Assembly: GCF_900188425.1 (NCBI RefSeq) | Contig: NZ_FZON01000001.1 | Span: forward strand, 62,001 to 126,000 | Length of the DNA stretch: 64,000 nucleotides | Source: Antarctobacter heliothermus | GTDB lineage: Bacteria > Pseudomonadota > Alphaproteobacteria > Rhodobacterales > Rhodobacteraceae | Reading direction: 5' to 3' | In this document: positions 27,616-51,883 of the stretch, piece after piece | Layout: every line of letters begins with the position of its first letter | Numbering within the stretch: the first letter of the stretch is position 1 | Position numbers and translations under genes: made by a program | The notes under the pieces: generated by a model | What the model was told of the DNA's origin: nothing | The model's input: only the letters and a program-made list of their open reading frames with translations | Databases searched by the model: none

Positions 27616-27700
27616 ATGGATGATGAAACGCGTATTTGCGGATCATCTTTCATACCTCCCTGTTGGACTTCGGCCGAGCTTTGAGCTCGGCCTTTTTTTT
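27616..27700 (+). ncRNA. Candidate small RNA with a CCUCCC single-stranded motif
   Basis: In the gap after the LysR gene the transcript would fold into a 5' hairpin (GGATGAT paired with ATCATCT, with an inner CGC/GCG), an unpaired stretch TTCATACCTCCCTGTTGG and a 3' terminator hairpin with eight Ts. The CCTCCC in an exposed linker could pair with ribosome binding sites, as proposed for CCUCC-type alphaproteobacterial sRNAs. No open frame accounts for it. It could instead be the 3' end of the lysR mRNA. Confidence 0.5.
27672..27700 (+). terminator. Very strong intrinsic terminator
   Basis: GGCCGAGCT (27672-27680) and AGCTCGGCC (27684-27692) form a 9-bp perfect stem with a three-base loop, followed directly by eight Ts. 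It ends the LysR gene transcript, the small RNA candidate, or both. Confidence 0.9.
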
Positions 27701-36379: not shown

Positions 36380-37978
36380 ATGTTGGACAACCGCCCCCCC
36401 CTGCCACCCGAGATCGCCCGCCGCCGGACCTTTGCGATCATTTCGCACCCGGACGCCGGCAAGACGACCTTGACCGAAAAATTCCTGTTGTTTGGCGGCG
36501 CCATTCAGATGGCTGGACAGGTGCGCGCCAAGGGAGAGGCGCGGCGCACACGGTCGGATTTCATGCAGATGGAAAAGGACCGGGGCATCTCTGTCTCGGC
36601 CTCGGCCATGTCGTTCGATTTTGGAAAGTTCCGGTTCAATCTGGTCGACACGCCCGGCCACTCGGATTTCTCCGAAGACACCTACCGGACGCTGACCGCC
36701 GTGGACGCCGCCGTGATGGTGATCGACGGCGCGAAAGGCGTGGAAAGCCAGACCCGCAAGCTGTTCGAGGTGTGCCGCCTGCGCGACCTGCCGATCCTGA
36801 CATTTTGCAACAAGATGGACCGCGAGGCGCGCGACACCTTCGACATCATTGACGAGATCCAGGAAAACCTGGCCATCGACGTGACGCCCGCGTCCTGGCC
36901 CATCGGCATGGGCCGCGATTTTCTGGGCTGTTACGACATGCTCAACGACCGGCTGGAACTGATGGACCGTGCCGACCGCAACAAGGTGGCCGAAACCATC
37001 ACGCTGGAGGGGCTGGACGATCCCCGAATGGCGGATCACATTCCCCCCGCCCTGCTGGAACAGTTGCGCGAAGAGGTCGAGATGGCGCGCGAACTGCTGC
37101 CAACGCTCAACCCGCAATCCGTGCTGGAGGGGCACATGACGCCGATCTGGTTCGGCTCTGCGATCAACTCTTTCGGCGTCAAGGAACTGATGGACGGCAT
37201 TGGCACCTACGGCCCCGAACCGCAGGTGCAAAAGGCCAGCCCGCGCGCGATTGCGCCAGAGGAAACAAAGGTCGCCGGTTTCGTGTTCAAGGTGCAGGCC
37301 AACATGGACCCCAAGCACCGCGACCGCGTCGCCTTTGTCCGCATGGCCTCGGGACATTTCACCCGCGGGATGAAGCTGACCCATGTGCGGACCAAGAAAC
37401 CCATGGCGATCTCCAACCCAGTGCTGTTCCTTGCCTCGGACCGCGAACTGGCCGAAGAAGCCTGGGCGGGCGACATCATCGGCATTCCCAACCACGGACA
37501 GTTGCGCATCGGCGACACGCTGACAGAGGGTGAGATGCTCAAGGTCGCGGGCATCCCGTCCTTTGCGCCGGAACTGTTGCAAACGGTGCGCGCGGGCGAC
37601 CCGATGAAGGCCAAGCACCTTGAAAAGGCGCTGATGCAATTCGCCGAAGAGGGTGCCGCCAAGGTGTTCAAACCGATGATCGGCTCCGGCTTTATCGTCG
37701 GCGTCGTGGGGGCCTTGCAGTTCGAGGTGCTGGGCAGCCGGATCGAGCTGGAATACGGCCTGCCGGTGCGTTTTGACGTGTCGCAGTTCACCTCTGCCCG
37801 CTGGGTGCATGGGGCCAAGGACGCGGTGGAAAAGTTCATCAACGCCAACAAGCAGCACATCAGCTACGACCACGACGGCGACGTGGTCTATCTGACGCGA
37901 CTGCAATGGGACATCGACCGGATCGAACGCGACTACCCGGATGTGACCCTGTCCGCGACCAAGGAAATGATGGTGTAA
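36380..37978 (+). CDS. prfC: Peptide chain release factor 3
   Basis: 532 residues, GTPase that recycles RF1/RF2 from the ribosome. G1 is SHPDAGKTTLTE, G3 DTPGHSDFSEDTYRTL, G4 NKMDREARD; the RF3-specific segments MEKDRGISVSASAMSF and RFDVSQFTSARWV are present. The ATG at 36380 matches the family. The stop codon lies inside a 12-bp hairpin that starts a tandem repeat block. Confidence 0.96.
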   Translation: MLDNRPPLPPEIARRRTFAIISHPDAGKTTLTEKFLLFGGAIQMAGQVRAKGEARRTRSDFMQMEKDRGISVSASAMSFDFGKFRFNLVDTPGHSDFSEDTYRTLTAVDAAVMVIDGAKGVESQTRKLFEVCRLRDLPILTFCNKMDREARDTFDIIDEIQENLAIDVTPASWPIGMGRDFLGCYDMLNDRLELMDRADRNKVAETITLEGLDDPRMADHIPPALLEQLREEVEMARELLPTLNPQSVLEGHMTPIWFGSAINSFGVKELMDGIGTYGPEPQVQKASPRAIAPEETKVAGFVFKVQANMDPKHRDRVAFVRMASGHFTRGMKLTHVRTKKPMAISNPVLFLASDRELAEEAWAGDIIGIPNHGQLRIGDTLTEGEMLKVAGIPSFAPELLQTVRAGDPMKAKHLEKALMQFAEEGAAKVFKPMIGSGFIVGVVGALQFEVLGSRIELEYGLPVRFDVSQFTSARWVHGAKDAVEKFINANKQHISYDHDGDVVYLTRLQWDIDRIERDYPDVTLSATKEMMV

Positions 37979-38791: not shown

Positions 38792-40426
38792 TCAAAGTTC
38801 GGTCAGCAGCGGCGTGATGCGGCGCACGGCAGCGCGGCGATTGGCCTGTTCGGCGGCTTGGGTGACGATCAGCAGATCGCCCTCACCATAGCCCTGCAAG
38901 ACGATGTTTTCCGGCGGGACGCCGAAATACTCGATCAACGCCAGCGCCACCGATTCCGCGCGCCGGTCCGACAGCGACAGGTTGTGCGCCTCATGTCCGC
39001 GCGCATCGGTGTGGCCCTCGATCAGGAACACCTCACGCGGGTCGGCGGCAATCGCCTCCAGCATGGCATAGCCCAGTGCGGCCAGTTCCTCGGCCTCTTC
39101 GGGACGGATCGCGGCGGAGTTCGAGGCAAAGTGGATCGTGTCGATGTTGATCCCCGGCGCCATCTTGCGCACCGCGTCGATATCCCGAACCTGCGCGAGC
39201 GAGAAATGACGCCCCGCCTCGACACTGGTTTCCCCGCCCAGCGCGCCGCTCATATCGCTGTTGCTCTGATAGGCGACGACAGTGGACGCCGGGGCATCCG
39301 GCAACTGGTTGACGACCACCTGATCGGTCTGCCTGGTATCGTCGAACAGCACCACCTCTGTCCCGTCCGGTGCAATGGTCGACCGGCGCAGCACGCGACC
39401 GTCCGGGGCGCGCAGGGTTTCGACCTCGCTGCCATCCTCATAGGCCATGACATTGCGGGTCGACCCGTCCTTGAACTGGTAGACCTGCACATTGGTGCCG
39501 GGGCGGTTCAGCAGCACGTCATCGTTGCGCAGCACCCGCATGACGCCATTGTTTTCGACCACCATGCGATCGCCGCTGTTGGTCACGACGCGGTCGCCGG
39601 TTGTCAGCACCTTGCCCATATCGACACGTCGATAGTCCAACGTGCCGGTCTTGATCCCGACCTGTCCCAGCACGGCACCGAAATCCTGCGAGGATCGGCG
39701 GATCTCCTGGTCTGTCAGCGTGCGATCCAGCACCTTGACAGCCCCGGCGGCCAGCCCGACGGCGGCGGCCACCTTGGCCACGTCACGCAGCGCGACGATG
39801 TCGGCCTGTCTCTGGCTGGACCCACGGTCGATATTGCCGGTGGGCAGGCGCACCACCTTGCCGGGGCGCGGGCCAACCTTGATGGTCCCGCCATTGCGAC
39901 CGACAAGTTCGCCTGCCAATTGCTTGCGCAGATCGTCGATATTCACTGCACCCGGTTTGACCACGATCCTGCCATTTGGGTTCACTTTGATGGCGGGCTG
40001 GCGCACCTTTGGCGGCACGGCAATCTGAACGTCGGGCACCCGTATACCCGGAGCGACCTTGACGTTCGGCACCCGGATGGTCGGGGTCTTGTCCCTGGGC
40101 GTCACGATCCGGACGTTCGGCACCTTGACCTGCGGCGTCACCTGCTTGTGCGGCACCACATGCACAGGGCGCGTAGCCTTTTTCGGCGGCTGGGTGACGA
40201 TCACCTGCGGCACGAACACCTTTTTCTTGGGCTGTTGTACAACGACCTTGGGCGGAGTCCGCTTGGCGGGCACCCGCTTTACGGTGCCCTTGAAGGCATC
40301 GGGGCATTTGATGCCCAGCGCCGGGTTGCACAACTGCTTGAGATCAAAGTTCTGGGCGCTTGCGGGCGCGGAGAAGGACGCCGCCAGCACGCTGAACGCG
40401 GCCGTGGCATAAAGGAGGCGTTTCAT
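38792..40426 (-). CDS. OmpA-family envelope protein (copy 1)
   Basis: 544 residues. A signal peptide (MKRLLYATAAFSVLAASFSAPASA) leads into a long basic, Pro/Val/Lys-rich segment (about 45-160), a middle region with GDRVVTNSGDRMVVENNG and beta-rich repeats, and a C-terminal OmpA domain with the peptidoglycan-binding motif LIEGHTDARG...NLSLSDRRAESV. It probably tethers the envelope to peptidoglycan. ATG 40426 has AAAGGA upstream; an ATG seven codons earlier is not needed. It is a paralogue of the gene upstream on the same strand. Confidence 0.85.
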   Translation of the reverse strand: MKRLLYATAAFSVLAASFSAPASAQNFDLKQLCNPALGIKCPDAFKGTVKRVPAKRTPPKVVVQQPKKKVFVPQVIVTQPPKKATRPVHVVPHKQVTPQVKVPNVRIVTPRDKTPTIRVPNVKVAPGIRVPDVQIAVPPKVRQPAIKVNPNGRIVVKPGAVNIDDLRKQLAGELVGRNGGTIKVGPRPGKVVRLPTGNIDRGSSQRQADIVALRDVAKVAAAVGLAAGAVKVLDRTLTDQEIRRSSQDFGAVLGQVGIKTGTLDYRRVDMGKVLTTGDRVVTNSGDRMVVENNGVMRVLRNDDVLLNRPGTNVQVYQFKDGSTRNVMAYEDGSEVETLRAPDGRVLRRSTIAPDGTEVVLFDDTRQTDQVVVNQLPDAPASTVVAYQSNSDMSGALGGETSVEAGRHFSLAQVRDIDAVRKMAPGINIDTIHFASNSAAIRPEEAEELAALGYAMLEAIAADPREVFLIEGHTDARGHEAHNLSLSDRRAESVALALIEYFGVPPENIVLQGYGEGDLLIVTQAAEQANRRAAVRRITPLLTEL

Positions 40427-40599
40427 CGGCAATTCCTTTCCCAAAGGGTTTGGACGGACATCTTGAAATTCTTGAACGTCAGGCGCGGCAGCAGCCCCAG
40501 CAGAATGACAACAGACCGGAGCCAGCCCGGCACACGTCTTGACGCAGCGTCATGAAACGCTTTTCCGCGCTTTCCGACAACGGAGGTATTCCCGACCAC

Positions 40600-40634
40600 A
40601 AACGCAAAACGCCCCCGGTGGGGGTCCACCGGGG
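40600..40634 (-). terminator. Terminator of OmpA-family copy 2
   Basis: CCCCGGTGG (40613-40621) and CCACCGGGG (40626-40634) form a 9-bp stem; the minus-strand continuation GCGTTTTGCGTTTG is T-rich. It lies about 27 bases after the copy 2 stop, between the two paralogues. Confidence 0.65.
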
Positions 40635-40660
40635 TCGCCAGTCATGTTTTTGATCGGTGA

Positions 40661-42286
40661 TTACCGCACCGAAAGCAGCGTCGTGATGCGGCGCACGGCG
40701 GCGCGGCGGTTGGCACGCTCGGCCACATCGGTCGGCACCAGAAGGTCGCCCTCACCGTAGCCTTGCAACACCATGTTTTCGGGCGGCACCTCGAAATACT
40801 CGGTCAGGGCAAGCGCGACCGATTCCGCGCGCCGGTCCGACAGGGCAAGGTTGTAGGCATAGCTGCCCACCGCGTCCGTGTGCCCCTCGATCAGGAACAC
40901 CTCTGCCGGGTTGCGCTCGATGGCGTCGCGCATCGCATTGCCCAGCGCGGCCAGTTCCTCGGCCTCATCGACGCGGATCGCGGCCGAGTTGGTCTCAAAC
41001 TGGATGGTGTCCACGGTGATCTCGGGCACCAGATGGCGCACGGCGTCGATGTTGCGTACCTGCGCCAGCGAAAAGCTGCGGTTCACTCCCGGCGCGCCAT
41101 TGGCGGCCAGCGCCCGGGCCAGAGCATCTTCTTCGATGTCGCGATAGTCGACCCTGTTGCGCTCCTGCGCGCGCGGCAAATCGCTGATCTCGACATCCGG
41201 GCTGGCCTGCGTGTCATCGAACAGAACCACGTCCGTCCCATCCGGCAGACGGCGCACCCGGCGCAGAACCCGACCGTCGGCGGCGCGGATGGTCTCGACC
41301 TCAGTGCCGTCCTCGTAGGTCAGACGCGTGCGGGTCGATCCGTCGTCAAAGCGCCGCGTCTCGACCTCGGCCCCCGGACGGCGCAACAACACGTCGTCGT
41401 TGCGAATGACACGGAACTGCCCACCCTGTTCGACCACCACGCGGTCGCCAGAGTTGGACACCACGCGGTCATCCTTGTCGAGGATCTCCGACAGCGCCAC
41501 GGCCCCCAGACCGATGATTGCAATCTTGGCCAAGGGGTCAAGACCGTCGTCATCGTCCTTCTTTGCCTTGTCCCTGTTCTTTACCTTGCCGGACAGATCA
41601 GTTTGAAAGTCCTCGCTCGACCGGCGCACGTCATCGCGGTCAACGGTTTCCTCAACCAGTTCCCCCGCATCGGGCGGGTTCTCTGCCGCAGCAGCGGGCG
41701 GCGCGCCAAGCTGACGGCGCAATGCCTCAATCTGCGCCAGCGGGTCAGGCTTTGCAACCTCGGCTCTGGGGGTCTCTGCCGCCGGTGCGGGCGGGGCATC
41801 GGCCCGTTGCGCCGGGGCCTCCGGTTCCGGGGCCCGCGGGGTTTCGGCCTGCTTGGGCGGCGCGTCCGGCGCCGGGGCGGGCGCGGTCACTGCCGGAGCT
41901 TCGGGCACTTCGGCCACGGGCGAGTCCGACTTGGGGGTATCGGCCTGCGCGGGCTTTTCGGCCTGTTCGGGCTTGTCCGCCTTGTCCGCTTTCTTTGCCT
42001 TCTTCGGCTTCTTCAGCGCGTCGTCCAATGCGTCCTTGGGTTTGGCCTGCTGCTCTGGCTCTGCGGCGGGCGCTGCTGGCTCTGCGCTGTCGACGGCCTT
42101 CAACGCCTCGTCCACCTGGTCGCAATCCACGCCCTTGGGCGCGGCCCCCGGAATGGCACACAACTTCTGCAACATCTTCAGCTTTTCAGGATCGTCAGGC
42201 TGCGCGCCCGACTGCGCCCCCGCGGCTGTACCAATCACAAGAGTCAGAACGCTGGCCAACGCAGTCGCATTGCGGATGGGGGTCAT
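40661..42286 (-). CDS. OmpA-family envelope protein (copy 2)
   Basis: 541 residues. A signal peptide (ending near AAGAQ) is followed by a long low-complexity Ala/Pro/Glu/Lys region (about 60-190), a short hydrophobic stretch (KIAIIGLGAVALSEIL), the same GDRVV/NDDVLLRRPG middle region as copy 1 and an OmpA domain (EGHTDAVG, LALSDRRAESV). ATG 42286 has GGAGACCACC upstream. The pair arose by duplication; the middle and OmpA regions are conserved while the linkers differ completely, suggesting different distances or partners in the periplasm. Confidence 0.85.
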   Translation of the reverse strand: MTPIRNATALASVLTLVIGTAAGAQSGAQPDDPEKLKMLQKLCAIPGAAPKGVDCDQVDEALKAVDSAEPAAPAAEPEQQAKPKDALDDALKKPKKAKKADKADKPEQAEKPAQADTPKSDSPVAEVPEAPAVTAPAPAPDAPPKQAETPRAPEPEAPAQRADAPPAPAAETPRAEVAKPDPLAQIEALRRQLGAPPAAAAENPPDAGELVEETVDRDDVRRSSEDFQTDLSGKVKNRDKAKKDDDDGLDPLAKIAIIGLGAVALSEILDKDDRVVSNSGDRVVVEQGGQFRVIRNDDVLLRRPGAEVETRRFDDGSTRTRLTYEDGTEVETIRAADGRVLRRVRRLPDGTDVVLFDDTQASPDVEISDLPRAQERNRVDYRDIEEDALARALAANGAPGVNRSFSLAQVRNIDAVRHLVPEITVDTIQFETNSAAIRVDEAEELAALGNAMRDAIERNPAEVFLIEGHTDAVGSYAYNLALSDRRAESVALALTEYFEVPPENMVLQGYGEGDLLVPTDVAERANRRAAVRRITTLLSVR

Positions 42287-44822: not shown

Positions 44823-44851
44823 TTGACGGGGTGTCCACACAATGTCATGAT
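44823..44851 (+). promoter_or_regulatory. Sigma70 promoter of the glycan operon
   Basis: TTGACG (44823-44828) and CATGAT (44846-44851) are 17 bases apart. The predicted start near 44858 leaves about 45 bases of leader before the ATG at 44903. A second TTGACG at 44807 is also present. Confidence 0.55.
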
Positions 44852-44902: not shown

Positions 44903-45970
44903 ATGGTAGACACTGAGGCGGGCGCCACGCGGCGCATCACCGCTGTAACCTGCGTCAAGAACGAGGGCCCGTTCCTGTTGGAATGGATGGCCTTTCATCG
45001 CCTGCTCGGCGTGACCGATTTCCTGTTCTATTCCAACGACTGCACCGACGGAACCGATACCTTGCTGGACGCGCTGGCCGCCGATCCGCGCCCCGAAACC
45101 GGGCGGGTGGTGCATCTGCCCAACCCTGCCGAGGGCCGCAACTATCAGATGGAGGCGTTGAAGGCCGCCGCCAGACAGCCCGTTGTGCAACAGGCCGATT
45201 GGGTCTGGATTGCCGATGTGGATGAATTCCTGAACATCCACGCAGGCGACCACACCATCCCGGCGCTGATCGCGGCCTGCGGCAACCCGCAGGTCATTTC
45301 GGTCACATTCCAGTTCTTTGCCAATGACGGTGTGACCGACTATGTCGACCGTCCGGTGATCGCCCAGTTTACCCGCTCGCACAATCCGGATCTGTGGTGC
45401 GCGGAAACGGCGATCGAGGTCAAAAGCCTCGTCCGGGGGGATTTCCCGCTGCAATACTTCGGCGCACACCGGCCGTTTTTCCGCAAGTCACTGGCAGAGG
45501 ACAAACACCCGCATTGGACCGATGGGTCCGGCCGCAAGGTACCGGGCAAGTTCCTGACCGCCGCCAACCCGCGCCGCATCCGCAAGTTTCCGGCGGCATG
45601 CGCGCGCGCGCATGCCACGCTGAACCACTATGCGCTGCGCTCCCTCGACAGCTACCTGGTCAAGAACGACCGGGGCGATGTCAACCGCGAGGGCCGCGCC
45701 TTTGACGACACCTATTGGCGCGAACGCAACGATGCCGGTTATGAGGATCGCTCGATCCATCGCTATCTGCCGCAGCTCACCGACGCGCTGGAGACGCTAA
45801 AGGCTGACCCGGACATCAACCGCCTGCACGGCGATTGCGTGCGCCTGCACCGCGAAAAGCGCGACGCCCTGATGCTGCAGCCCGCCTATGCCGTCATGTA
45901 TGCCCATCTGGCCTCCCTGCCCTCCTTGCCCCCCGGTGAGGCGGAATTGATCGAGGCGCTGGGGCTATGA
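44903..45970 (+). CDS. Glycosyltransferase family 2-like protein (first gene of glycan operon)
   Basis: 355 residues, GT2-type fold (Glyco_tranf_2_4 group). The N-terminal TCVKNEGPFLLEWMAFHRL and YSNDCTDGTDTLL bind the nucleotide sugar; the metal motif is IADVDEFLN (D105-D107), and NHYALRSLDSYLVKNDRG near 240 is shared with two other proteins of this operon. No membrane helix or signal is seen, so it works in the cytoplasm. Its stop overlaps the next start (ATGA), so translation is coupled. Confidence 0.85.
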   Translation: MVDTEAGATRRITAVTCVKNEGPFLLEWMAFHRLLGVTDFLFYSNDCTDGTDTLLDALAADPRPETGRVVHLPNPAEGRNYQMEALKAAARQPVVQQADWVWIADVDEFLNIHAGDHTIPALIAACGNPQVISVTFQFFANDGVTDYVDRPVIAQFTRSHNPDLWCAETAIEVKSLVRGDFPLQYFGAHRPFFRKSLAEDKHPHWTDGSGRKVPGKFLTAANPRRIRKFPAACARAHATLNHYALRSLDSYLVKNDRGDVNREGRAFDDTYWRERNDAGYEDRSIHRYLPQLTDALETLKADPDINRLHGDCVRLHREKRDALMLQPAYAVMYAHLASLPSLPPGEAELIEALGL

Positions 45971-46644
45971 GCGCGCTGAACGTGAAACTGGTCAACCTCG
46001 GCCTGCCCAAGACGGGCACCACCACCCTGCATCACGCCTTGACGCAAGCGGGATGGCGGGCGGCGGATCACAAGGTCCGGCGCATCCATGACCCCACCCC
46101 CGGCAAGGGCGGCACCTATATCGCGCGCCAACTGTACAACGGCTATTTTGAGACCGGCGATCCGTTCCGGCACCTCGACGGGCTGTATGACGCACTGACC
46201 GAAATCAGCGCGCTCAACCCGTCTGCAACGCTTTGGCCGCAGTGTGACTATGCGATGATCAAGGCCATGCGCCTTGCGCGTCCCGACATGCTGTTTGTCG
46301 CCACATGGCGTCCGGCGGCAGAGACATCGGATTCCATGCGGCGCTGGAACAACCTGGGTGAGGACCGCCTGCCCGCCGGGCACATTCCCGGACTGCCAGA
46401 GGGCTACGGCGCGACAGACCCCCAGCGCATCCGCTGGATCGAGGGGCACTACGCCATGCTGCGCGACCTCTTCGGGGACGATCCGCGCTATCTGGAACTG
46501 CCGGTGGGCGCGGAGGATGCGCGCGACCGGCTTGCGGCACATGTGAAGATGGACATGCCCTGGTGGGGCAGACTGAACGAGAACCCCGAAACGGGGCCGT
46601 CAGGCAGGAACGACAAGGCCGAAACGGCCAAAGGGGCAGCGTGA
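45967..46644 (+). CDS. Sulfotransferase-like protein
   Basis: 225 residues. The N-terminal LVNLGLPKTGTTTLHHAL (about 8-25) is the phosphosulfate-binding loop of PAPS-dependent sulfotransferases, and MLFVATWRPAAETSDSMRRWN fits the 3'-phosphate site. Overlap of four bases with the upstream GT gene and one base with the downstream gene shows a single translationally coupled unit. It may sulfate the glycan made by the neighbouring enzymes; that is inference. Confidence 0.75.
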   Translation: MSALNVKLVNLGLPKTGTTTLHHALTQAGWRAADHKVRRIHDPTPGKGGTYIARQLYNGYFETGDPFRHLDGLYDALTEISALNPSATLWPQCDYAMIKAMRLARPDMLFVATWRPAAETSDSMRRWNNLGEDRLPAGHIPGLPEGYGATDPQRIRWIEGHYAMLRDLFGDDPRYLELPVGAEDARDRLAAHVKMDMPWWGRLNENPETGPSGRNDKAETAKGAA

Positions 46645-49001
46645 TGCGGATCTATGTACATATCGGGCCGGACGGTCCGTCAAGCGACCGGATACAACGG
46701 GTTCTGGATGCCAAACGCGGACGGCTAAAGGATGAGAACGTGCTGTATGCCCGCTCTCCGGGGGCCAGAAACCACACCCGCCTGTTCATGGCGGTCAGCG
46801 ACCCGGACCGCGCCGATGTGCTGCGGTTCAATCGCGGCATGATGCTGCCGGAGAAACAGCAGTCGCTGCGCGACGAACTGGCCCACCAACTGGCGCAAGA
46901 GATCGCGCGCGACACGCCCGAGGTGCTGATCCTCTCGGTGCATCAGTTGGGCACCTCGCTTTGCGACCGCTCTGAACTGGAACGCCTGCGGGTGCTGCTG
47001 GCCCCGCTGTCGGACGACATCCGCATCGTCGCGTGGCTGGACGAACCCGCCCGCGCGCTGGTCGCGCGCTATGGCGCTCAGGTGCTGGACGGGCGTGCCC
47101 GGGGGCTGGGCCTTGAACTGAACCTAGCAGAGGTGGATGACTTCTGGGAGGCGGCTATAGACACACGCCCCGACACCTCACCGCTGGACGGCATGTTCCC
47201 AGAAGTGCAAGGCGCGAACTTCTGGCTGGATTACAAACGCCTGCAATCCGAATGGGAGGCCGTGTTTGGCGCCGGATCGGTCCAGTTCCGCTCTCTCAAC
47301 CGAGATACGCTGTGGTCCGAGGACGCGACGGACGAGATCTGCGCCGCCTTCGGCATCGACGCACAGATTGGCAAGGCCGAGGCCGAAGAGTTGCCGCGCC
47401 TACCCTCTGCCCCGTGGCTGACCCGCGCGCGCCAGTTCAACGACGCGGTGCTGCGCCTGCTGGACCGGCAGGACATCCTGCTGCCGCGCCCGCTGTGGCG
47501 CAAGCTGCTGGGAGAGATCAAGGTGCCCGGCGGCGCGATCCTTGCCGGATCGCTCTCGGCGCTGTCCATGAGGTTTGAGGACGACATCGCCGCGCTTTGC
47601 GCCGAACACGACGCGATGCGGCTTGACGACATGGAGGCCGATCCGATCTGCGGCGACTGGGTCGAGGCCGATCCGTCACGCGGCTTTCGCGCCACGCAGT
47701 ACCTCATGGCGTTCCGCTGGCGCATCGCGCAGGGCGACAAGGACGAGCGAGAGGCACGCGCCATAGAACTGGCGCATCTGAAGGGCGAGCCGATGGATGT
47801 GCCAGACGCGCCCGCCCTGACCGACAGCGCCGAGGACGCCCTGCCCGCGCAGGCCAAGCAGAACTTTGTCCGCCTTCAGGGCTCTCCCTACGCACCGCAC
47901 AACAAGCTGGGTCGCGTGAATGAGGAGGAACTGGCCGCCGCCTTTGCCCCCGCGCCGCGCCGCGTGCTGCCGCAGGGATCGACCGGCAACGTCATTGTTG
48001 GCTGCATGAAAAACGAAGGCCCCTACATCCTGGAGTGGATCGCCTATCACCGCGCCGTGGGGTTCGACAATTTCCTGATCTACACCAACGGCTGTTCCGA
48101 TGGTACGGCAGAGATCCTTGACCGCCTGCAAGAGCTTGGCGTGCTTCAACACCGCGACAACAACGGTTGGTCCGGCAAATCCCCCCAGCAACACGCGCTG
48201 GACGCCGCGCTGGAAGAGCCGGTGATCCAGAACGCCGCTTGGATCGCCCATATCGACGTGGACGAGTTCGTGAACATCCGCTGCGGCAATGGCACGCTGG
48301 CGGATATGTTCGACCGGGTGCCCGACGCCACCAATGTCGCCATGACCTGGCGGCTGTTTGGCCACAACGGTGTGCGCCGCTTTCAGGACCGTCTGGTGAT
48401 CGAACAATTCGACACCTGCGCGCCGAAATACTGCCCCAAGCCGCACACGGTCTGGGGCTTCAAAACCCTGTTCCGCAACATCGGGGCATATGAAAAGATC
48501 TCTTGCCACCGGCCCAACAAGCTGGCCGAGGGGTTCGAGGACAAGGTGAAATGGGTCAACGGATCTGGCCGCGACATGACCGATGCGGCGATCCGCAACG
48601 GTTGGCGCAGTTCCAAACGCACCATCGGCTACGACCTGATCCAGCTGAACCACTACGCCTTGCGCTCTGCCGAAAGTTTCCTGATCAAACGCCAGAGGGG
48701 TCGCGCCCTGCATGTGGATCGCAATATCGGGCTGAACTACTGGATTCGCATGGATTGGTCGGTCCACCGCGACATCACCATCAAGCGCAACATCCCCCGT
48801 GTGCGCGCCGAATACGATCGGCTGCTGCGCGACGATGCTCTGCGCGCCGCCCACCACCGGGCGCTGGAATGGCACCGAGCCAAGGCGGCGGAACTGCACG
48901 GGATGCCAGAGTTTGCAGACCTCTACCGGCAGGCGTTGGCGCTGGACCTGACAGAAACTGAACGGGTGGCCTATGCGCTGGCCCTGGACATGGAGACGTG
49001 A
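46644..49001 (+). CDS. Two-part protein: unknown N-terminal region plus GT2 domain
   Basis: 785 residues. The C-terminal half (from about 446) is a GT2 domain closely like the other two (GCMKNEGPYILEWIAYHRA, YTNGCSDGTAEIL, HIDVDEFVN near 537, LNHYALRSAESFLIKRQRG). The N-terminal 440 residues begin MRIYVHIGPDGPSSDRIQRV and contain WLDYKRLQSEWEAVFGAGS. I do not recognise this region with confidence; the start recalls sulfotransferase/kinase-like folds but lacks the P-loop KTGTT. ATG 46644 overlaps the previous stop (TGATG). Confidence 0.75.
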   Translation: MRIYVHIGPDGPSSDRIQRVLDAKRGRLKDENVLYARSPGARNHTRLFMAVSDPDRADVLRFNRGMMLPEKQQSLRDELAHQLAQEIARDTPEVLILSVHQLGTSLCDRSELERLRVLLAPLSDDIRIVAWLDEPARALVARYGAQVLDGRARGLGLELNLAEVDDFWEAAIDTRPDTSPLDGMFPEVQGANFWLDYKRLQSEWEAVFGAGSVQFRSLNRDTLWSEDATDEICAAFGIDAQIGKAEAEELPRLPSAPWLTRARQFNDAVLRLLDRQDILLPRPLWRKLLGEIKVPGGAILAGSLSALSMRFEDDIAALCAEHDAMRLDDMEADPICGDWVEADPSRGFRATQYLMAFRWRIAQGDKDEREARAIELAHLKGEPMDVPDAPALTDSAEDALPAQAKQNFVRLQGSPYAPHNKLGRVNEEELAAAFAPAPRRVLPQGSTGNVIVGCMKNEGPYILEWIAYHRAVGFDNFLIYTNGCSDGTAEILDRLQELGVLQHRDNNGWSGKSPQQHALDAALEEPVIQNAAWIAHIDVDEFVNIRCGNGTLADMFDRVPDATNVAMTWRLFGHNGVRRFQDRLVIEQFDTCAPKYCPKPHTVWGFKTLFRNIGAYEKISCHRPNKLAEGFEDKVKWVNGSGRDMTDAAIRNGWRSSKRTIGYDLIQLNHYALRSAESFLIKRQRGRALHVDRNIGLNYWIRMDWSVHRDITIKRNIPRVRAEYDRLLRDDALRAAHHRALEWHRAKAAELHGMPEFADLYRQALALDLTETERVAYALALDMET

Positions 49002-49003
49002 CG

Positions 49004-49705
49004 ATGGACGGCGCATCCCCGGCACCCCGCGACCCTTTCCTGCATTCACGCGGGCTGAAGATCCCAAAGCATCCGCAAATCACGCGCGGGCGTATGCGCG
49101 GCGCGCTGAAACAGGGCATCTATGAACGCAAGGAATGCGACGCCGTCATGCGCGTGGTGCGCGAGGGCGACCGCGTGCTCGAACTGGGCGGCGGCATCGG
49201 CTACATGTCGACGCTGCTGTCGGTCAAGAAAAAGGTCGCCCGCGTGGTCAGCTATGAGGCCAATCCGGCGCTGATCCCCTACATCCGCTCCGTGCATGAG
49301 GCCAATGGCGTCACCAACGTCGATCTGCGCAACGCGCTCTTGGCCCCCGAACTGGGCGATCCTGTGCCGTTTTATGTCCGGCAGAACTTTCTCGGCTCCT
49401 CGATGGACCGCGACGCCGACCCCGACACGGTGATCGAAGAGGTCAAGGTCATGCAACACGCCATCAACCCGGTGCTACAGGCCGAAACGCCGGATGTGCT
49501 GGTCTGCGATATCGAAGGGGCGGAGGCGCATCTGCTGCCCGCCGCCGACTGGTCGGGCCTGCGCGCAGCGGTGATCGAACTGCACCCGCAGTGGATTGGC
49601 CAAAGCGGCGTTCAGGCGGTGTTCGACTGCATGCACCGCGCCGGTCTGACCTATTTCCCCAAGGCGTCCGAGGCCAAGGTCGTGACTTTCCGCAAAGGTT
49701 GGTAA
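49004..49705 (+). CDS. FkbM-family SAM methyltransferase
   Basis: 233 residues, with a SAM site VLELGGGIGYMSTLL and the FkbM-type ending LVCDIEGAEAHLL...AAVIELHPQWIG. FkbM proteins methylate sugars and related hydroxyl groups. ATG 49004 with GGAG at ideal spacing is chosen; a GTG at 48998 overlaps the previous stop. It is the fourth gene of the glycan operon and probably decorates the product. Confidence 0.85.
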   Translation: MDGASPAPRDPFLHSRGLKIPKHPQITRGRMRGALKQGIYERKECDAVMRVVREGDRVLELGGGIGYMSTLLSVKKKVARVVSYEANPALIPYIRSVHEANGVTNVDLRNALLAPELGDPVPFYVRQNFLGSSMDRDADPDTVIEEVKVMQHAINPVLQAETPDVLVCDIEGAEAHLLPAADWSGLRAAVIELHPQWIGQSGVQAVFDCMHRAGLTYFPKASEAKVVTFRKGW

Positions 49706-49715
49706 TGACGCGAAA

Positions 49716-49736
49716 CGATTTTTCGACGAAAAATCG
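49716..49736 (+). terminator. Short palindrome before the last glycan gene
   Basis: CGATTTTT-CGACG-AAAAATCG is an 8-bp stem inside the 52-base gap between the methyltransferase and the last GT gene. It may attenuate transcription; a longer T-run on the plus strand is lacking. Confidence 0.4.
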
Positions 49737-49757
49737 CCTCACCCTCGGGGGCAATCC

Positions 49758-50813
49758 ATGACCATCACCGCCGTCCTGTGTGTCCGCAATGAGGGCGCGT
49801 TCCTGCTTGACTGGCTGGCGCATCACCTGACCTGCGGCGTAACCCATGTGGTTGCGCTGTCGAACGATTGCCAGGACGGCACCGACACCCTGCTGGACCG
49901 GCTGGCGCAGGTTATTCCGCTGACCCATATCCGCAACGATGGTCCCTACGACGAGCGCGGCATCCAGTTCACCGGCCTGAAACGCGCGGATCAGACCGAC
50001 GCCGTGCGCAACGCCGACTGGCTGATCTCGCTGGACATCGACGAATACGTCAACGTCCACACCGGCGACCACACCCTGCCCGCCCTGATCGCCGCCCTGC
50101 CCAATGCAACCGCCATCACCCTGACCTGGCGGCTGTTCGGCAACGCCGACATCATCCGCTACACCGACCGACCCGTGACGCAGCAATTCACCATGGCCGC
50201 GCCTGTGATCATGCACTGGCCGTGGCGTGCGGCGATGTTCAAGACGCTCTACCGCAATGACGGCACCTATTCGAAACTGGGCGTCCACCGCCCGCGCGCC
50301 CCCGTTCCGGCACAGGTAGACACGGCCCACTGGTTCGACGGTGAGGGCCGCGAGCTGGACGCACAATTCCGCACCCGCCGGATATTCTCGCAATACGGCC
50401 GCTCCAACTATGCGTTAGCGCAACTCAACCATTACGCCCTTGGCGCGATGGAAAGCTATGTGCTCAAATCCGACCGGGGCCGCGCGGTACATTCCGACCA
50501 CGCGCTAGGCATGGACTACTGGGTCGAACGCAACTGGAGCGTTGAAGAAGACCGCAGCATTCAGGCCCTTGCCGGTGTCGCCGAACAACGCGCCAAACTG
50601 GCCGCCGATCCTGACCTGTCGCGCCTGCACACCGCCGCCGTCGCTTGGCGCAAGGCCCGCTTTGACACGCTTTTGGCACAGGAACCCTATCGGGCCTTGT
50701 TTGCCCGCTTGCTTATGACACCACCCGCTCGGCCCGTATCGCTCAACGCGGCGCGGTTTCTGGCCGGGCACGCAACGCAGGCACGCAACACCAAAGACGC
50801 CCCCCAGAACTGA
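49758..50813 (+). CDS. Glycosyltransferase family 2-like protein (last gene of glycan operon)
   Basis: 351 residues, same GT2 group: LCVRNEGAFLLDWLAHHLT, LSNDCQDGTDTLL, LDIDEYVNVH (D93, D95) and LNHYALGAMESYVLKSDRG. Clear relative of the genes at 44903 and 46644. ATG 49758 follows a short intergenic gap with a palindrome. It probably adds a further sugar. Substrates cannot be told. Confidence 0.85.
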   Translation: MTITAVLCVRNEGAFLLDWLAHHLTCGVTHVVALSNDCQDGTDTLLDRLAQVIPLTHIRNDGPYDERGIQFTGLKRADQTDAVRNADWLISLDIDEYVNVHTGDHTLPALIAALPNATAITLTWRLFGNADIIRYTDRPVTQQFTMAAPVIMHWPWRAAMFKTLYRNDGTYSKLGVHRPRAPVPAQVDTAHWFDGEGRELDAQFRTRRIFSQYGRSNYALAQLNHYALGAMESYVLKSDRGRAVHSDHALGMDYWVERNWSVEEDRSIQALAGVAEQRAKLAADPDLSRLHTAAVAWRKARFDTLLAQEPYRALFARLLMTPPARPVSLNAARFLAGHATQARNTKDAPQN

Positions 50814-50932: not shown

Positions 50933-51883
50933 ATGGAATCGCAAGCCAAAGGATTCGCCCCCGATCTCAGCAACCAGCCGCGCGGAGAGTGGCTGGCAAC
51001 GCTGCGCCGGATCGGCGAGGAATACGGGTTTGCCGAACCCATGGGCAAAAGCCACGCCGCGATCTTTGTCGAAGAGGGTGACACGCTGGTCGTCGCGTTT
51101 GAGACCATGTCCGGCATCGAAGCCCTGTCAGAGACGCGCACCCCCATCGGGTTCGACATGGTCAACGCCAACGGCTGGTCCTCGCTGTCGATGCTCAGCC
51201 ACGGCGATACATGGTTCCGCGATGAACGGGTCTATGCGTTTTTCGACCAGCTTCAGGATGACGGCTTTTTCGACGACTTTGAAAACGTGCTGTTTTATGG
51301 CGCTGGACCCTGTGGCTATGCTGCCGGGGCCTATTCCGTCACCGCCCCCGGTGCCCGCGTTCTGATGCTGCAACCGCAGGCCACGCTGGACCCGCGCGTG
51401 GCCGAATGGGACGACCGCTTTGCCGAGGAACGCCGCCGCGATTTCACCTCGCGCTATGGATTTGCGCCGGAAATGATCGACGCCGCCGAACGGGCCTATG
51501 TGATCTACGACCCGCGTGAACGGTTGGACGCAATGCACTCGGCGCTGTTCGCACGGCCCAACGTCACGCGCCTGCGCGCACCCTTTATGGGGGGCGCGTT
51601 GCAATCCGATTTCCGCGCGCTCGACCTGTTGCCGGGGATGTTGACAGCCGCCGCCCAGGGCCGGTTGGACAGCGATTTGTTTGCCACAATGCTGCGCGCC
51701 CGGCGCAACCACCCGCCTTACCTGCGTCGCCTGCTGGCGCGGCTGGATGCAGATGGACGCGACGGGCTGGCCCGCATCCTGTGCCAGAACGTGGTGGGCC
51801 GCATGCCCGCGCCGCGCTTTCGCCGCCGCCTTGCGGAACTGGAGGCCGGGGACGACAGCGTCCGGGCGGCTGACGCGCGCTGA
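50933..51883 (+). CDS. Conserved protein of unknown function upstream of pyrC
   Basis: 316 residues from ATG 50933 (MESQAKGFAPDLS), with GAGGAT upstream. Notable features are a LFYGAGPCGYAAGAYSV stretch near 120, which resembles a glycine-rich nucleotide or alpha/beta-hydrolase-type loop, and a VTAPGARVLMLQPQA strand that follows. Similar Rhodobacterales proteins are, as far as I recall, sometimes labelled phosphoadenosine phosphosulfate reductase, but no such motif is visible. Function unknown. Confidence 0.6.
   Translation: MESQAKGFAPDLSNQPRGEWLATLRRIGEEYGFAEPMGKSHAAIFVEEGDTLVVAFETMSGIEALSETRTPIGFDMVNANGWSSLSMLSHGDTWFRDERVYAFFDQLQDDGFFDDFENVLFYGAGPCGYAAGAYSVTAPGARVLMLQPQATLDPRVAEWDDRFAEERRRDFTSRYGFAPEMIDAAERAYVIYDPRERLDAMHSALFARPNVTRLRAPFMGGALQSDFRALDLLPGMLTAAAQGRLDSDLFATMLRARRNHPPYLRRLLARLDADGRDGLARILCQNVVGRMPAPRFRRRLAELEAGDDSVRAADAR

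Follow-up and report, generated by a model that had tools for sequence, protein, structure and literature searches.

The question raised by this locus is what five closely packed genes, three of them encoding related glycosyltransferase (GT) domains, might build together. The window (the whole 64,000-nucleotide stretch of Antarctobacter heliothermus DNA analysed here) contains, according to our ORF check, five intact ORFs in one packed unit at positions 44903–50813. All lie on the forward strand: gene A (44903–45970), a GT-A glycosyltransferase; gene B (45967–46644), a sulfotransferase; gene C (46644–49001; 785 aa), a fusion of a pseudo-sulfotransferase with a glycosyltransferase; gene D (49004–49705), an FkbM-family methyltransferase and optional member; and gene E (49758–50813), a further GT-A glycosyltransferase. 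The preliminary description had presented them as a compact set joined by ATGA/TGATG overlaps or short gaps, and all four junctions bear this out. The stop of A and the start of B overlap in ATGA (45967–45970), the stop of B and the start of C (ATG 46644) overlap in TGATG, D starts at either GTG 48998 (a 4-nt overlap with C, which ends at 49001) or ATG 49004, and D and E are spaced by 52 nt. The compactness is conserved among relatives: with start codons picked by script, the ends of A and B overlap or touch in 65 of the 72 loci measured, and those of B and C in 71 of 73. A weak promoter-like site (TTGACG-17-CATGAT; 44823–44851, forward strand) is found just 5' of A; chance alone would give 1.8 such sites over the stretch. 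The neighbours identified by Pfam are RF3, two OmpA proteins, a CoxE-like VWA protein and an AAA ATPase upstream, and downstream gene F (50933–51883, forward strand; no family), an amidohydrolase and a phosphoribosyltransferase (labelled pyrC and pyrE below, respectively), DnaB, CobS and alanine racemase.

The claim that the set carries three related GT2 domains holds. PF13704 is found in A, C and E (2.1e-20, 9.9e-23 and 6.2e-20, with 73.5, 80.9 and 72.0 bits, respectively, against 27.5), the hhalign probability is 100 for all three pairs of GT domains, and the DxD aspartates are invariant in the GT alignments of A, C and E (as DVDEF in A and, invariantly, in C). Both PF13704 and GT92 were matched in 62 of 62 C members at E ≤ 1. 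The C-terminal domain of C (residues 442–729; 47967–48830, forward strand) is a GT92-like GT-A domain, which aligned with GalS1 (PDB 8d3t) with a Z score of 17.3 and an rmsd of 3.2 over 225 aligned residues, part of the model having low confidence. GalS1 is a plant beta-1,4-galactan synthase. Likeness to GT92/GalS1 lies in the GT-A fold and in the Pfam GT92 scores of A and C (35.7 and 36.8 bits; cut-off of 23); the differences are that the domain of C is bacterial and fused to a pseudo-sulfotransferase, and that E (17.6 bits) stays under the cut-off.

A recent tandem duplication of the GT genes was considered and rejected. In a tree of 61 GT domains (midpoint root), the A rows of the operon form one clade (100/100), the C rows form another together with a protein we label L099 (100/100), and the E rows group with E-like genes from other genomes (100/99); since A, C and E fall into separate groups, the duplications must be old. 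From the PF13704 copies elsewhere in the host's own genome, five stretches were fetched and one long row of unsure placement (from L111) entered the tree, so the tree says little about these copies. L099, from genome G154, is a 616-aa fusion of Sulfotransfer_4 with a GT domain, the latter being nearest to that of C. A full-length match to L099 was found in one of 120 genomes (its own), and its sulfotransferase part gave no match with the profile of the N-terminal domain of C, so it lends thin support to a link between B and C.

Gene B, earlier described as sulfotransferase-like, does have intact PAPS-binding motifs: the P-loop residues Lys15, Gly17 and Thr18 (PKTGTT/PKSGTT), Arg115 and Ser123 are invariant among 75 aligned sequences. 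Its family assignment is marginal (Sulfotransfer_4, PF17784, 8.1e-5, with 23.0 bits where the cut-off is 22.8), the Sulfotransfer_3 score of 14.8 bits does not reach the cut-off of 27, and a PDB sequence search with B returned sulfotransferases with an E-value of 0.07 at best. A gene for APS kinase, which is needed for PAPS, is present at another place in the genome.

The N-terminal part of C is the most unusual piece of the unit. Pfam has no match in the first 454 residues of C, no sulfotransferase family was found among the 62 members scanned, and a PDB sequence search with C found nothing. The preliminary description had called the product 'unknown-GT2'; its GT part is GT92-like as shown above, and its unknown part has a predicted sulfotransferase fold. 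In the AlphaFold2 model of C (mean pLDDT 84, pTM 0.62, with blocks of residues 1–370 at 86–97), residues 1–333 (46644–47642, forward strand) aligned with 3rnl with a Z score of 14.8 and an rmsd of 4.1 (240 of 247 residues aligned), with human 3-O-sulfotransferase 5 (Z 14.2) and with NDST1 (Z 14.1), and we assign the predicted structure of this domain to the sulfotransferase fold. The same link is seen when a profile of the N-domain is used: searched in 61 genomes, it retrieved 13 full-length copies and listed, beyond these, 30 weaker matches, of which two lie in the host's own genome, and it finds P-loop sulfotransferases with a best E-value of 8.4e-16. A direct comparison of the N-domain profile with that of B gave nothing (hhalign 0.3%), and homology between the two by this route was rejected; the connection to sulfotransferases was found via the fold and via other sulfotransferases.

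Lys, Arg and Ser residues at defined columns of the sulfotransferase fold bind PAPS, and these are the residues that C lacks. The degenerate P-loop of C (residues 6–18, HIGPDGPSSDRIQ; 46659–46697, forward strand) has Lys at the P-loop column in none of 80 C proteins (one has Arg), the column of the 3'-phosphate Arg holds Arg in none of the 80 and Asp in 71 (a charge reversal), and the 3'-phosphate Ser is present in 2 and absent in 78. Lys is also lost in more divergent C copies and in those of genomes whose unit has no B. The relatives retrieved by the profile keep these residues: the P-loop Lys is found in 30 of the 30 weaker matches (of the types HIGxxKTGSTSIQ and HIGFNKCGSTALQ, and including the second domain of L117), the Arg in 12/12 and 9/9 of those aligned there in a first and a second alignment, respectively, and the Ser in 11/11 of those aligned there in the first. 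These matches were read from 14 ORFs aligned first (14 rows plus one unlisted ORF, one ORF holding two rows), then fifteen, with one read directly.

We considered whether the N-domain is simply decaying, and rejected this because dN/dS speaks against it: values are 0.17–0.35 for the N-domain (seven comparisons), 0.07–0.18 for the GT domain and 0.12–0.16 for pyrC (six comparisons), with dS above 1 (saturated) in several comparisons. At the protein level, the N-domain evolves about twice as fast as the GT part of C. With the residues of the PAPS site lost and dN/dS low, we call the N-domain a pseudo-sulfotransferase under selection, and infer that it binds no PAPS. C therefore shares its fold over residues 1–333 with PAPS carbohydrate sulfotransferases (3rnl, heparan 3-O-sulfotransferase, NDST1), and B shares their PAPS motifs, whereas the PAPS-binding Lys and Arg are gone from C throughout and the Ser nearly so; NDST1 joins its sulfotransferase to a deacetylase, while C joins this fold to a glycosyltransferase.

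The host genome is close to Mameliella/Maliponia, and the best relatives of C are 83–86% identical over residues 1–786. One scan of genome contigs turned up 260 relatives of C. The 80 best were taken further, and gene order is conserved in these 80 loci: the order VWA-, ATPase-, A, B, C, (D), E, F, pyrC, pyrE is exact in 36 of the 80, and the same without D in 17. In the 72 loci whose flanks were long enough (the other 8 of the 80 were dropped), A and E are always present; B and the ATPase are each found in 69, while 66 loci have F, 64 have VWA, 63 have pyrC and 47 have D, as judged by tblastn with the window proteins, by which a strongly diverged gene could score absent. The gene-order and presence data indicate that F belongs to the neighbourhood of the unit. 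The gap between E and F is at least 85 nt in all 63 loci measured, which suggests that F may have its own start signal.

Because these loci had been chosen by C, co-occurrence was tested in whole genomes from 120 sampled genera of the family. Co-occurrence among relatives had been set beforehand as one test of the unit, and the genes do travel together. Orthologues of A (E ≤ 1e-90; weakest counted 3.5e-146) are found in 43 of the 120 genera, with one match per genome at this threshold; a strong match to the N-domain of C (E ≤ 2.8e-61) is found in 41 of the 120, every one of them within the 43 that have A. The two A-bearing genomes with no strong N-domain match are G343, with a diverged C copy inside the unit (98 bits), and G405, whose C match is truncated to the GT part and whose A lies on a separate contig. 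The next-best N-domain matches (5e-20 in G380 and 1.5e-19 in G343) cover residues 2–163 and 2–151 only. B is found in 40 of the 43 A-bearing genera and in one further genome (hypergeometric probability 4e-27, shared ancestry ignored). From these sequence comparisons, we consider the evidence for co-inheritance to be strong, and the unit is widespread in Roseobacter-type genera and not a local oddity. A search of the open-access literature returned no paper that appeared to describe the unit.

B is missing from the unit in six of the 43 A-bearing genera. For three of them (G293, G329 and G332) B is best matched outside the unit, elsewhere in the genome; in G293 and G332 the matching ORF is 533 or 522 aa long and has similar ORFs beside it. 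The genomes of the other three (G315, G345 and G397) have no B at E ≤ 1e-25. The dead domain of C is retained in all six, which argues that C is not strictly dependent on B. In a class-wide sample C was matched in 12 of 289 genomes: three belong to the same family, and the nine others match within the GT part alone. At this sensitivity, the N-domain thus appears to be specific to the family. Among 20 stretches that were fetched, 12 contain a C-sized ORF (746–816 aa) with a GT domain and no N-domain match. A plasmid search with C yielded 169 records, but in none of them does the match span 80% of C; among these, the 12 listed are GT-domain matches.

D is an FkbM methyltransferase (Pfam FkbM, 8.9e-6; TIGR01444, 1e-11, 45.5 against 37.7 bits), so the methyltransferase behind the methylated glycan of the preliminary description is there; its presence in 47 of 72 loci indicates that methylation is not core to the unit. 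In loci that lack D, C and E are separated by at most 50 nt in 21 of the 23 measured, and D is therefore truly absent there.

Gene F passed no family in Pfam or NCBIfam (weak scattered matches only), and a PDB sequence search returned a single chain (0.42). Its model (pLDDT 91) has an alpha/beta-hydrolase fold. The best structural match is 6oyc_B, which belongs to the Gap123 glycosylation complex (Z 13.6, with an rmsd of 3.5 over 203 aligned residues), followed by 6yus, a capsule O-acetyltransferase (Z 12.5), with esterases and acyltransferases near Z 12; the esterases are within 1–2 Z units, and with scores this close the nearest family of F is unsettled. F shares its fold with these alpha/beta-hydrolase O-acyltransferases and esterases, and differs from them in lacking the nucleophile Ser and the His. 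In operon copies of F, the nucleophile column holds Gly in 72 of 72 (with Ser one position later in three) and the His column holds His in none of the 72; at the nucleophile elbow (51293–51322, forward strand) our F reads FYGAGPCGYA, as compared to FYGASMGGYA in several paralogues. Of 13 family members outside the unit, nine keep the Ser (GASMGGYAA type) and a GH, and four lack both, so the loss is not unique to the unit. An annotation of F as PAPS reductase was rejected, given the alpha/beta-hydrolase fold and the lack of a Pfam or NCBIfam match.

What, then, would the unit make? A small sulfated glycan is a plausible product, and on balance we favour the reading of A-B-C-(D)-E as a unit that assembles a short sulfated oligosaccharide in the cytosol; the domain set suggests cytosolic synthesis, with the acceptor supplied from elsewhere. 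The three GT-A/GT92-type enzymes (A, the C-domain of C, and E) would probably attach three sugars one after another to a single acceptor, B would sulfate the product from PAPS, and D, if present, would donate a methyl group. The N-domain of C, its normal PAPS binding lost, would most likely hold the glycan or dock B, and would in this way couple sugar addition to sulfation. F, a hydrolase fold without catalytic Ser and His, would probably be a binding or scaffold protein of the same pathway. The final place of the product may be the outer surface, reached via an acceptor that is made and exported elsewhere. What appears new in these sequences is a conserved pseudo-sulfotransferase–glycosyltransferase fusion beside a live-looking sulfotransferase, with the degenerate F next door. 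A more far-reaching version, which we offer tentatively and regard as doubtful, is that live and dead enzymes are paired here: the dead domain of C would hold the growing sugar or activate B, and would in this way keep sulfation in step with the addition of sugars, F would be a second dead enzyme with the same role at another step, and the product would be a sulfated glycolipid or oligosaccharide, as yet undescribed and typical of Roseobacter-type bacteria. These bacteria are abundant in the sea, attach to algae and have a poorly known cell covering; the retention of the unit by 43 of the 120 sampled genera points to a glycan that they have in common, and a fused sulfotransferase fold that is selected after losing its cofactor site would be a clear case in which to study how dead enzymes steer sugar assembly.

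Alternatively, the unit could build no free oligosaccharide and instead decorate a large existing glycan, such as the outer core of lipopolysaccharide or a capsule at its side branches. Such a role would account for the lack of an adjacent polymerase or exporter gene, which had been noted at the outset and which stands: no polymerase, flippase or exporter family was matched in the 16 proteins searched at 36380–58203 (small ORFs left out), and genes for polysaccharide-export proteins (PF02563) lie at three other sites of the genome. We nevertheless consider decoration unlikely, as nothing was found that ties the unit to a particular acceptor, and the wide retention of A, with its single match per genome, contrasts with decoration genes of variable surface glycans, which usually vary between strains. 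Glycosylation of a protein, e.g. flagellin or a protein of the envelope, in which D and B would act on the sugar attached to it, is less probable again. FkbM methyltransferases and small GT sets are present in protein-glycosylation islands too, and F has its best structural match in a chain of Gap123, with esterases within 1–2 Z units; on the other side, no flagellin, pilin or secretion family was matched among the same 16 proteins flanking the unit.

The short-oligosaccharide reading also takes the N-domain of C to be inactive, and here the competing view is that it is an active sulfotransferase that binds PAPS via other residues, which would give two sulfation steps. The retained fold (Z 14.8), the purifying selection and a set of residues that is invariant both in 62 and in 44 sequences (among them Gly8, His44, Arg46, Arg61 and Arg64) are consistent with activity. 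The complete loss of the P-loop Lys and the 3'-phosphate Arg in the 80 C proteins, the latter mostly replaced by Asp, in a family whose relatives keep the Lys in 30/30 and the Arg in 12/12 and 9/9, makes it very improbable.

We also compared the unit with known systems of other kinds. In Rhodobacter capsulatus, a related alphaproteobacterium, the cluster rcc01081–01086 holds sugar-polymer genes for the capsule that serves as the GTA receptor (PMC10218006). Compared by description only, this unit differs from such capsule export clusters in having no adjacent polymerase, flippase or exporter family, and a tie to the GTA capsule receptor was dropped, as the part of PMC10218006 consulted does not connect the rcc genes with the unit. 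An anti-phage defence system was rejected as well: A, B, C, E and F have no match among PADLOC models at E ≤ 0.01, and the sole match is a methyltransferase stretch in D, where residues 19–111 only align with mad2 (3.4e-8).

Outside the unit's own arrangement, a fusion of a Sulfotransfer_4 domain with a glycosyltransferase domain was found in another genome, G154 (L099:6071-7921), and its glycosyltransferase part is the nearest to that of C, the gene that joins a pseudo-sulfotransferase N-domain to a GT92-like domain. A single 668-aa ORF (L117:1375-3381) carries two sulfotransferase domains in tandem, both of which keep the P-loop lysine. Further stretches (L081-L089) contain ORFs of the size of C (746–816 aa) whose first half is a domain other than that of C; judged by eye, this domain resembles a worn GT2 copy. 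Hydrolases of the F family are found near these ORFs in several of these stretches, and some of them retain Ser and His.

Sulfotransferases of the B family with a C-terminal extension of about 310 residues are encoded away from the unit (L102:3198-4766 and L103:6337-7938), near ORFs that we take to be similar to PBP1A and an amidase.

Within the unit, the 52-nt gap between D (FkbM methyltransferase) and E (glycosyltransferase) contains a near-palindrome, GATTTTTCG-A-CGAAAAATC (49717-49735). Since the median D-E gap is only 4 nt (n = 47 loci measured), this near-palindrome may be a local feature.

Upstream, two OmpA-domain proteins (550 and 541 aa) are encoded in tandem on the minus strand (38792-42286); their architectures are alike, with the OmpA domain C-terminal in each. 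The window also contains a SorX sRNA (singlet oxygen resistance RNA) at 27627-27698 on the plus strand (Rfam, 51.2 bits versus a cut-off of 46.6).
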